From positions 1,524,733 through 1,588,732 of the forward strand of contig NZ_JAUFPK010000001.1 in the NCBI RefSeq assembly GCF_030409225.1: 64,000 nucleotides of DNA, written 5' to 3'. This DNA comes from Aquisalimonas lutea. Lineage in GTDB: Bacteria; Pseudomonadota; Gammaproteobacteria; Nitrococcales; Aquisalimonadaceae. Shown in pieces: positions 919-3,864 of the stretch (position 1 is its first letter; every line of letters begins with the position of its first letter). Position numbers and translations under genes: made by a program. The notes beneath the pieces are model-generated. The model was not told the origin of the DNA and did not search any database. It saw only the letters and a list, made by a program, of their open reading frames with translations.

Positions 919-2277
919 ATGTTTGACAATCTGAGTGAGCGCCTCGATGGCGTCATGAAACGCCTGCGCGGGCAGGGACGGCTCACCGAGGACAACATCC
1001 AGGAGAGCCTGCGGGAGGTCCGCATGGCCCTGCTGGAAGCGGACGTGGCCCTGCCGGTGGTCAAGGACTTCATCCGCGACGTCAAGGAGCGCGCCCTGGG
1101 CGAGGAGGTCAAGCGCAGCCTGACCCCGGGGCAGACGTTCGTGAAGATCGTCAAGGACGAGCTCGTGCGCGTCATGGGCGAGGCCAACGACGCGCTCGAC
1201 CTCAGCGTCCGGCCGCCGGCGGTGGTCATGGTGGCCGGCCTCCAGGGCGCCGGCAAGACCACCAGTGTCGCCAAGCTCGCACGCTACCTGCGGGAGCGGG
1301 AGAAGAAGAAGGTCCTGGTGGTGAGCTGCGACGTCTACCGGCCCGCGGCCATCGACCAGCTGGAGACCCTGGCCCGGGAAGTGGAGGTGGACTTCTTCCC
1401 GTCGGATACCGGCCAGAAACCCGAGGCCATCGCCCGGGCGGCGGTGGATCACGCCCGCAAGCAGTTCCACGACGTGCTGCTGGTGGACACTGCCGGCCGG
1501 CTGCACGTCGACGAGGGCATGATGGCCGAGGTCGGCCAGCTCCACCAGGCGCTGGAGCCGGCGGAGACGCTGTTCGTGGTCGACAGCATGACCGGCCAGG
1601 ACGCGGTGAACACCGCCCACGCGTTCAACGACGCGCTGCCGCTCACGGGGGTCATTCTCACCAAGACCGACGGCGATGCCCGGGGCGGCGCCGCGCTGTC
1701 CATCCGGCAGATCACCGGCAAGCCCATCAAGTTCCTGGGTACCGGGGAGAAGACCGAGGCGCTGGAGCCGTTCCACCCGGACCGGGTCGCCTCGCGCATC
1801 CTCGGCATGGGCGACATGCTCAGCCTGGTGGAAGAGGTCGAGCGCGGCGTCGACCGCGAGGAGGCCGACCGGCTGACCCGCAAGCTCAAGAAGGGCAAGG
1901 GTTTCGACCTGGAGGACTTCCGCGACCAGATGAGCCAGCTCGGGAACATGGGCGGCATCGGCAGCATCATGGACAAGATGCCCGGCATGGGCGGCATGGC
2001 CGACAAGGTCAAGGGGCAGGTGGACGACAAGGATATCCGCCGGCTGGTGGCCATCATCAACTCCATGACCCCCGCGGAGCGCCGCCGCCCGGATGTCATC
2101 AACGGCTCCCGCAAGCGCCGCATCGCCACCGGTTCCGGCACCCAGGTGCAGGATGTCAACCGCCTGCTGAAGCAGTTCAAGCAGATGCAGAAGATGATGA
2201 AGCAGGTGAAGAAGAAGGGCGGCATGCAGCGGATGATGCGCCAGCTCGGCGGCCCGGGCGGTATGCCGCCAGGATAG
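919..2277 (+). CDS. ffh: Signal recognition particle protein Ffh
   Basis: This 452-residue GTPase binds 4.5S RNA and delivers nascent membrane proteins to FtsY at the inner membrane. The N domain covers about residues 1-85. The G domain shows the P-loop GLQGAGKT at 107-114, DTAGR at 190-194 and TKTD at 248-251. The Met-rich M domain runs from about 325 to the end, with the GSRKRRIATGSG RNA-binding core and many MxxM repeats. Length and order are standard. The ATG at 919 follows a GGAGG at 900-904. The gene is followed by a heptamer repeat region that separates it from the convergent DUF3422 gene. Confidence 0.98.
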   Translation: MFDNLSERLDGVMKRLRGQGRLTEDNIQESLREVRMALLEADVALPVVKDFIRDVKERALGEEVKRSLTPGQTFVKIVKDELVRVMGEANDALDLSVRPPAVVMVAGLQGAGKTTSVAKLARYLREREKKKVLVVSCDVYRPAAIDQLETLAREVEVDFFPSDTGQKPEAIARAAVDHARKQFHDVLLVDTAGRLHVDEGMMAEVGQLHQALEPAETLFVVDSMTGQDAVNTAHAFNDALPLTGVILTKTDGDARGGAALSIRQITGKPIKFLGTGEKTEALEPFHPDRVASRILGMGDMLSLVEEVERGVDREEADRLTRKLKKGKGFDLEDFRDQMSQLGNMGGIGSIMDKMPGMGGMADKVKGQVDDKDIRRLVAIINSMTPAERRRPDVINGSRKRRIATGSGTQVQDVNRLLKQFKQMQKMMKQVKKKGGMQRMMRQLGGPGGMPPG

Positions 2278-2280
2278 AAG

Positions 2281-2454
2281 TTTGCAGTTGTCAGTTTTCA
2301 GTGTTCAGCAGCGGGTCAGCAGCGGGCAAGGTGAGGGAGGACCCCGTTCGCGGTGGCCGCCACTTCCGGGCGGCGATGCGGTCTCCGAGGTATTTCTGAG
2401 CCGTTCTGAAAACTGAAAACTGAACACTGCAAACTGAACACTGCAAACTGAAAA
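2281..2454. repeat. Heptanucleotide tandem repeats in inverted orientation
   Basis: Four heptamers ending in CAG (TTTGCAG, TTGTCAG, TTTTCAG, TGTTCAG) fill 2281-2308. Seven heptamers beginning with CTG (CTGAAAA, CTGAAAA, CTGAACA, CTGCAAA, CTGAACA, CTGCAAA, CTGAAAA) fill 2406-2454. The second set is the reverse-complement type of the first, so the arms face each other across about 97 bp of ordinary GC-rich sequence. They start 4 nt after the ffh stop and end 6 nt before the DUF3422 stop. The arms are far more AT-rich than the surroundings. They may fold into a long stem that ends transcription from both sides, or may be a dispersed short tandem repeat family. Confidence 0.8.
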
Positions 2455-2459
2455 CTTCC

Positions 2460-3818
2460 TCAATGCGCCGCCTCCGTTCCCAGCACTTTCCTCCGGAGAT
2501 AGCGCAGCCCCAGGAACGCGCCGACGACCACCACCGGCACCGCGGCGCCCACGGCCAGGTCGACGTTGAAGTCCACGCCGGCGCTGTGGAGGCCGTGGAG
2601 CATGTAGGAGATCAGCCCGCTGCCGTAGTAGCTCATGACCAGGACCGACAGCCCCTCCACCGTCTGCTGGAGGCGCAGCTGCAGGTCCGTGCGGCGGTTC
2701 ATGGACGCCAGCAGGTCGCGGTTCTGGCCCTCCAGGGCGATATCCACCCGGGTGCGCAGCAGGTCCGCGGCCCGGGACAGGCGCCGGGCCAGGTTCTCCT
2801 GGCGCTCGGCGACGGTCTCGCAGGTGCGCATGGCCGGGCGGAACCGGCGCACCAGGAACTCGTCGATGGTCTGCAGCTCGCTCAGGCGCTGCTCGCGCAG
2901 GTTCTCGATGCGCCGCCGGACCAGGGCGTCGTAGGCCCGCGCGGCACTGAGCCGGTAGCTGGTGCGCGCCGTGGTCTGCTCCAGGTCGGCGGACAGGGCG
3001 GAGATCTCCGCCAGCAGGGCCTGCTCGTTCTCCAGGCTGGCGCTGCGCGTGATGCGCCGGGTGATGGCCTCCAGCCCTTCCTCCAGCGCCGTGAGATCCT
3101 TGCCCGCTTCGCGGGCCATGGGAAAGGCCAGCAGCGCCAGCAGCCGGTAGGTCTCGATCTCCAGCAGGCGCTGCACCAGGCGGCCCGCCCGGCGGGACGG
3201 CAGTCCGCAGTCCTGGATGAGAATGCGGCCGTAGCCGTCGTCGTGGAGCCGGAAGTCGGTGTAGACGCGTGCGGCGCCGTCGGCCACCTCGCTGCCGGCG
3301 ATGTTGGGCGTGCCGAACAGCTCGGTGAGTTCGTGGGGCGGATGATCCGGCGCGTCCTGGCTTTCCATGGTGACGTGCACCGCGGCGATGACCTGTCCGG
3401 GCAGGGTCTGCAGCCAGTCCCCGGGCACCGCCTCCAGCGCCGTCTCCGCGAACGGTACCCCGGGGGTTGGCGGCGCACCGGGGACGAAGAACGTGTACGT
3501 GGAGAACTCCGTATGCCGTTCCCAGCGCAGCCGGAACGCGCCCAGGTCGACGCTGTGGTGGGTGGCGTCGGCTGCCGGCGCCACCTGGTCCATGGCCTCG
3601 CACAGGGCGCGCACGCGCTGCTGGTCGCTATCGCCGTCGTCGCTGAGCACGGCCAGGTGGGTGGCGCGCAGCGGGCCGTTCAGCGTCTCGAAGGGGCGCG
3701 CATGGATTTCTCCGGCCACTCGCCGACGCTGGGGATGCTCTTCAAGGCCGTTCAGCGTGGGGGTCGGTGCCGATTCCGTCATGATGGTGCCCCGGGATGA
3801 TGGAACTTTTTCCGCCAT
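2460..3818 (-). CDS. DUF3422 family membrane-anchored protein
   Basis: The protein has about 452 residues and no established function. The N-terminal part has the family hallmark EIHARPFE. The middle (about 190-370) is helical and rich in Glu, Arg, Leu and Gln, consistent with a coiled coil. The C-terminus has two hydrophobic segments (around VLVMSYYGSGLISYML and VGAAVPVVVVGAFLGL), so the bulk is probably cytoplasmic with a membrane hairpin at the end. Start choice is uncertain: a TTG at 3845, ATG at 3818 (chosen, weak GCGGA ahead) and ATG at 3782 are all in frame. It lies 46 bp downstream of a TauE/SafE gene on the same strand, so the two may be co-transcribed. Confidence 0.8.
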   Translation of the reverse strand: MAEKVPSSRGTIMTESAPTPTLNGLEEHPQRRRVAGEIHARPFETLNGPLRATHLAVLSDDGDSDQQRVRALCEAMDQVAPAADATHHSVDLGAFRLRWERHTEFSTYTFFVPGAPPTPGVPFAETALEAVPGDWLQTLPGQVIAAVHVTMESQDAPDHPPHELTELFGTPNIAGSEVADGAARVYTDFRLHDDGYGRILIQDCGLPSRRAGRLVQRLLEIETYRLLALLAFPMAREAGKDLTALEEGLEAITRRITRSASLENEQALLAEISALSADLEQTTARTSYRLSAARAYDALVRRRIENLREQRLSELQTIDEFLVRRFRPAMRTCETVAERQENLARRLSRAADLLRTRVDIALEGQNRDLLASMNRRTDLQLRLQQTVEGLSVLVMSYYGSGLISYMLHGLHSAGVDFNVDLAVGAAVPVVVVGAFLGLRYLRRKVLGTEAAH

Positions 3819-3864
3819 GTTCCGCTTTGCCGTGTCCGCCGGCAACCCTTGGGTGTCCCCGGCC

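Follow-up and report, generated by a model that had tools for sequence, protein, structure and literature searches.

Small dispersed intergenic palindromes without a gene of their own are known as REP, BIME or REPIN sequences, and RAYT transposases are linked to them. Dispersed arrays of tandem heptamers have also been described. In Xanthomonas, arrays of the heptamer GGGAATC are dispersed and mostly intergenic, and the majority have four units (Rehm et al. 2015, PMC4692102). That report gives 70 and 75 cases of close array pairs on opposite strands and finds 83% of the repeats at the same place in the sister species; sense-strand arrays lie near stop codons, and antisense-strand arrays lie upstream of ORFs (PMC4692102). 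In Geobacter metallireducens, putative global regulator sites have been sorted into classes 1 to 3 (Aklujkar et al. 2009, PMC2700814). In Beggiatoaceae, arrays of two to six TAACTGA units lie flush with gene ends and are patchily distributed across phyla; in the largest class, the array stops 1 nt short of a start codon (MacGregor 2015, PMC4679880). BrickBuilt of Porphyromonas gingivalis is an intergenic MITE with a tandem repeat (Klein et al. 2015, PMC4596501). The earlier heptamer arrays have been treated in single-genome accounts and given separate roles as quadruplexes, regulator sites or translation signals. How does the ffh locus of Aquisalimonas lutea compare with these systems?

The array pair between ffh and the DUF3422 gene

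The window is the whole stretch of A. lutea DNA that was analyzed, 64,000 nucleotides in length. In the window, the convergent genes ffh and DUF3422 are separated by 182 bp, and this gap is filled by a paired-array element. The features are as follows.

919..2277, plus strand: ffh gene, SRP54-type GTPase (ORF call; Pfam SRP54, SRP_SPB, SRP54_N)
2281..2308, minus strand: left arm, four heptamers, CTGAACA CTGAAAA CTGACAA CTGCAAA on the minus strand (sequence)
2309..2405, no strand: GC-rich spacer, 97 bp (sequence)
2406..2454, plus strand: right arm, seven heptamers, then CTT (sequence, TRF, pattern match)
2460..3845, minus strand: DUF3422 gene (ORF call; Pfam PF11902, E 2.3e-166)

In plus-strand letters, the left block reads TTTGCAG TTGTCAG TTTTCAG TGTTCAG (4 units), and the right block has the 7 units CTGAAAA CTGAAAA CTGAACA CTGCAAA CTGAACA CTGCAAA CTGAAAA. 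The palindrome is prolonged by a few bases at its outer edges (AAGTTTGCAG ... CTGAAAACTT). A preliminary description of the locus had counted eleven units of the form CTG[A/C]A[A/C]A in inverted blocks of 4 and 7 around about 97 bp. The layout stands, while the formula fits 10 of the 11 units; TTGTCAG (CTGACAA) is off it. The same description held that the blocks fill the convergent gap almost exactly. This is borne out by the 3 nt between the ffh stop codon and the left array and by the DUF3422 stop codon (2460-2462, plus-strand numbering), which lies 5 nt past the right array.

The arrays stand out from their surroundings. A two-unit pattern with at most 2 mismatches has 9 matches in the 64-kb window, all of them within 2281-2454; when the window is shuffled 100 times, the mean is 1.57 and no shuffle exceeds 5. 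The TRF score of the forward block (74) is the top of the 65 rows for the window. An RNA stem-loop of -80 kcal/mol (z -4.03) is predicted for window positions 2276-2461.

No second occurrence of the 97-bp spacer at 2309-2405 was found among the own genome and 13 relatives. In three other members of the genus (G001, G002 and G004), the ffh-DUF3422 gaps are about 45, 160 and 130 bp in length (by eye) and contain other hairpins or palindromes without such arrays. The similarity of the window spacer to these three gaps is at the shuffle level, its score being reached by 64, 275 and 294 of 500 shuffles, respectively. The idea that the spacer is leftover native DNA was therefore dropped. Integron attC-like cassettes were dropped as well, since the three genus members keep the ffh-DUF3422 neighbourhood without the element.

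Copies in the genome, in relatives and in other phyla

Across the own genome, a three-unit pattern with at most 3 mismatches matches 62 times and the reversed control pattern once, and I group the 62 matches into 18 sites. This supports the dispersed repeat family that the preliminary description had considered, possibly like the cyanobacterial STRR elements, and its refuting condition of a single locus with the units does not hold. Both arms were detected by the three-unit search at 6 of the 18 sites (contig C1, near 379.7k, 832.1k, 1463.3k, 1510k, 1527.1k and 1821.7k). The unit variants are CTGAAAA, CTGAACA, CTGCAAA and CTGCCAA, the last of which occurs in runs of eight. With gene ends taken from simple ORF callers, as throughout this study, the outer neighbour is a gene 3′ end for 19 of the 24 arrays; 16 of these 19 lie within 30 nt of the 3′ end and two are more than 300 nt off. 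The remaining arrays either adjoin a gene 5′ end (3 arrays) or have no called neighbour (2 arrays). There are also single-array sites (e.g. L064, L065, L066 and L067), and at L064 the array itself provides the stop codon of a ThiF-family gene. Two REP-like palindrome clusters (GTAGGAGCG...) lie at L055:1414-1837 and L055:2857-3288 (C1, about 1508.4k-1510.3k) and are 94.8% identical over 402 bp. Each of them finishes in eight CTGCCAA units, which extend into a gene on the minus strand at its 3′ end.

Two exact units were found in 22 of 95 relatives (the own genome being counted among the 95) and the reversed control pattern in 6 of the 95 by my count. The other genus members G001-G004 have 0, 0, 0 and 1 matches. 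Another genus of the same family, g4, has 68 matches in G007 (Methylonatrum kenyense AMT 1), 16 in G010, 6 in G012 and 34 in G013; G010 and G012 are other species of the Methylonatrum genus. The outer neighbour of the 29 arrays in G007 is a 3′ end in 22 cases (18 within 30 nt), a 5′ end in 6 and none in 1. At the htpX site, a GC hairpin of G002 stands in place of the array pair of the own genome (by eye); in this type of comparison (23 loci), only the loci displaying the gene 3′ end were used, as many others lay on the opposite strand or at the end of a contig. Around G246, the genus comparison gave no clean empty site, and at one junction the element-free species has overlapping genes or other DNA. 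A special role of the ACTG tetramer was dropped, because by my count the reversed control occurs in 36 of 369 genomes and ACTGNNN in 33. Four genomes (G085, G174, G177 and G383) are rich in the reversed control, as GTCANNN arrays, which points to other heptamer families being common in the class.

Named genomes contain the exact paired form in at least 119 stretches, although most of those listed are metagenome-assembled genomes (MAGs), many come from a few MAGs, 13 come from one Planctomycetota MAG, and contamination is possible. From the record titles, I place these stretches in eight phyla, which among the matches listed are Planctomycetota, Bacteroidota, Acidobacteriota, Verrucomicrobiota, Chloroflexota, Pseudomonadota, Myxococcota and Bacillota. 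Most frequently an arm has four or five units, on the left (40 and 37 of the 119 listed) as on the right (41 and 41 of the 119 listed). Outside the searched pairs, all 18 of 18 neighbouring array pairs less than 200 bp apart have the order reverse-then-forward. Counted per strand, an acidobacterial MAG has 386+386 matches (control 1+1), and four other genomes have 139+172, 100+126, 93+112 and 89+111; at the low end are the own genome (9+3) and Flavobacterium tructae (1+0, control 2+0).

Are the spacers alike within a genome? No pair is alike in nine groups, for example among 78 pairs in the Planctomycetota MAG and 45 in a Chloracidobacterium MAG. Alike spacers were found in 11 of 28 pairs of a Bacteroidales MAG (CACZNH), 9 of 105 in G007 and 2 of 6 in MNJR, and the only such pair of the own genome (1 of 28) is the duplicated REP cluster. 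Two features of the MITE type, terminal inverted repeats and high copy number, are present and are clearest in G428; the own genome has the 18 sites. At the G428 sites, in regions picked among the matches listed, no target-site duplication was seen by eye.

Two further arrangements were observed. In L313 (472-582 and 1189-1306) and L076 (2148-3525), a single gene has an element on each side with near-identical spacers, as if these were local copies or cassettes. In L169, L228 and L299, the TTTTCAG pair is enclosed by a further inverted pair, made of a second heptamer of the GTGACAA/GTGACGA/GTGATAA type.

Unit families at shared junctions and fit into gene gaps

The Methylonatrum genus has three unit families, CTGAAAA, CTAAAAC and CTCGAAC, and a single genome can have several of them. 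The CTAAAAC and CTCGAAC families are missing from G013 and from ten further members of the family; the control of the unit-family search gave 0 in all 14 genomes. The heptamers differ between species at 5 of 8 junction sets, which is not an unbiased share, as the loci were chosen for their CTAAAAC or CTCGAAC content. At one junction, Pfam assigns the two genes to Fe-S biosynthesis and semialdehyde dehydrogenase, and I read them as erpA and argC; there, G007 has a CTGAAAA pair, G010 has a CTAAAAC pair, and G012 has a single CTCGAAC run. The other differing junctions are L341/L347, L340/L351, L079/L343 and L083/L346, and the units agree at L352/L356, L353/L357 and L075/L087. At L352/L356 (G010/G007), the array length is unequal at the shared junction. 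At two additional junctions of G007, all three families are missing in G012 (by eye).

At the L341/L347 junction, 77 of 100 bases align between the spacers, which are orthologous, with a score of 86 against 15.4 ± 5.0, and at most 36, in 500 shuffles, and both arms differ in family between the two species. Thus, at this junction at least, the spacer persisted through a change of arms. The two arms of one pair are of the same family in 36 of 37 cases (G007 20/20, G010 13/13, G012 3/4); shuffling the arm families within genomes gives a mean of 25.0, and 0 of 200000 shuffles reach 36. The array order at 42 loci of the genus is reverse-forward in 37 and forward-reverse in 0, the others being same-strand (3 and 2). 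A short GGTWACTGA-like spacer motif is common to L343, L352, L353 and L356, across unit families and species (by eye).

It was possible to place 112 of the listed 119 elements: 77 at tandem, 29 at convergent and 6 at divergent junctions. The fit statistic covers the tandem junctions only; the convergent ones were left out because ORFs were called into the elements (median residual -48). At tandem junctions, the summed remainder of the two flanks is 20 nt or less in 70% of the 77 elements versus 39% of 317 control gaps, where per-base random insertion would give 1.8%, and the remainders differ from those of the control gaps (Mann-Whitney p 2.5e-6). In the acidobacterial MAG, the median remainder is 11 nt (39 placements) versus 74 nt (46 control gaps), and a start can read CTGTTCTT-ATG and a stop TAA-AG-CAG. 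Divergent gaps are under-represented (6 of 110 versus 77 of 324 control gaps).

Possible origins and known systems

The window contains a single copy of a palindromic, non-coding element that is dispersed, with a short spacer inside two inverted heptamer arrays, and it is seated near-flush between genes. I give a probability of about 0.5 to the reading that it belongs to a self-spreading population of intergenic sequences, of the REPIN/MITE type, whose arms turn over. The arms may grow and shrink by replication slippage, and copies or arms may spread via a copying process acting on the hairpin, which would be carried out by a single-strand transposase or by template switching from one copy to another. 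The gene gaps may be a tolerated or a targeted seat, and hairpin effects at transcript 3′ ends may be a by-product or a later use. The reading is preferred because of the dispersal, the fixed-order inverted pairing, the tight gap fit and the patchiness, and because of the same-family arms, the differing units at shared junctions and the orthologous spacer with different arms. Several observations count against it. The mostly unrelated spacers within a genome are unlike a typical MITE, and the sites of G428 and the genus comparison supply neither a target-site duplication nor a clean empty site. The L341/L347 pair also argues against the replacement of whole elements. Paired heptamer elements are not known to have a mobilizing enzyme.

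A selected function at the ends of transcripts is possible but rather unlikely. Here the elements would be bidirectional 3′-end hairpins whose arms pair in the RNA, so that both transcripts are terminated or protected, with selection maintaining the complementarity. The gene 3′ ends beside 19 of 24 own-genome arrays, the fold predicted at the locus (z -4.03), the 36 of 37 same-family pairs and the rarity of divergent placements (6 of 112, and 6 of 110 when set against the control gaps) are consistent with such hairpins, as is the GC hairpin that replaces the array pair at htpX in G002. However, 77 of the 112 placed elements lie between co-directional genes, one-array sites such as L064-L067 exist, and in 2200-2560 of the window no site resembling an intrinsic terminator (GC stem and T run) was found, with 0.5 expected. 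Moreover, arms of the same element pair no better (-30.32) than arms taken from different elements within a genome (-30.32 ± 0.31; 85 elements), a comparison with little power where the units are all alike. This comparison also gave no sign that single arms co-evolve within a unit family, an idea that was dropped. The preliminary description had proposed a large stem-loop that terminates both transcripts. The stem-loop agrees with the predicted fold, but a bidirectional terminator as the general role is not supported, in view of the absence of a terminator-like site in 2200-2560, the arm pairing and the 29 convergent against 77 co-directional placements. It is plausible that the element has a putative effect on transcript 3′ ends in the own genome.

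Passive slippage, in which chance seeds expand into heptamers and the gaps tolerate them without any movement, is improbable. It would suit the array-length change between species at L352/L356 and the presence of arrays of other heptamers in many genomes (36 of 369 for the reversed control, 33 for ACTGNNN). It leaves the fixed reverse-then-forward pairing unexplained, however, and accounts neither for one unit family at many sites per genome nor for the same unit in far phyla.

By analogy with G. metallireducens, the arrays might be paired binding sites for a chromosome-organizing or regulatory protein, but I consider this quite improbable: the common four- or five-unit arms and a paired layout as in the described Geobacter sites (PMC2700814) speak for it, while no such protein is known, and sister species that differ in unit at shared junctions, like several unit families coexisting per genome, are hard to square with one protein. 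Little weight is likewise given to active writing at gene junctions, in which a template-using polymerase or reverse transcriptase would add or rewrite a genome-set unit on the 3′ strand at both gap edges. On either side, the T-rich strand TTTTCAG points 3′-ward to the interior of the gap, as would be the case after telomere-like addition. With the unit fixed by the genome and not by the site, sister species would differ in the word around a conserved spacer.

The unit change at shared junctions offers a direct way to study the spread of such repeats and how their likeness is kept up, for which slippage alone is insufficient. The results suggest that some heptamer arrays represent one architecture found in multiple phyla, an inverted pair that becomes the intergenic spacer. 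The 17-mer string of the element was not found in open-licence PubMed Central, and of the 43 papers there with one of four shorter strings, the 20 listed have titles from unrelated fields. Among the papers listed there, I came across no description of the unit itself or of units that change at a shared junction, which is slight evidence that none exists. The stems of REP, BIME and REPIN sequences are tagged with GTAG/CGTC, whereas the arms here are tandem heptamers. BrickBuilt has a 23-nt unit, one direct array and short inverted ends, and lies 49-591 nt from the nearest genes (PMC4596501). The TAACTGA arrays of Beggiatoaceae are direct, with one inverted case among 170 sets, whereas the arrays here are inverted pairs (PMC4679880).

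The closest systems are those of Xanthomonas and Geobacter, in which the paired-array layout is already known. Dispersed tandem heptamers and close opposite-strand arrays are both present here, and the unit is neither GGGAATC nor MTYCTGA. The Xanthomonas unit is G-rich and folds as a quadruplex, a proposal that cannot explain the A-rich unit of this study (PMC4692102). While 83% of the Xanthomonas repeats keep their position, the unit differs at 5 of the 8 junction sets from Methylonatrum, which were selected for their array content. As in the described Geobacter sites, short tandem units (there 3-5 copies of seven or eight bases) occur as opposite-strand pairs at a variable distance (PMC2700814). 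The Geobacter units differ from the one found here, the class 3 unit being MTYCTGA, and the class 1 sites accompany insertion sequences at a fixed distance (PMC2700814).
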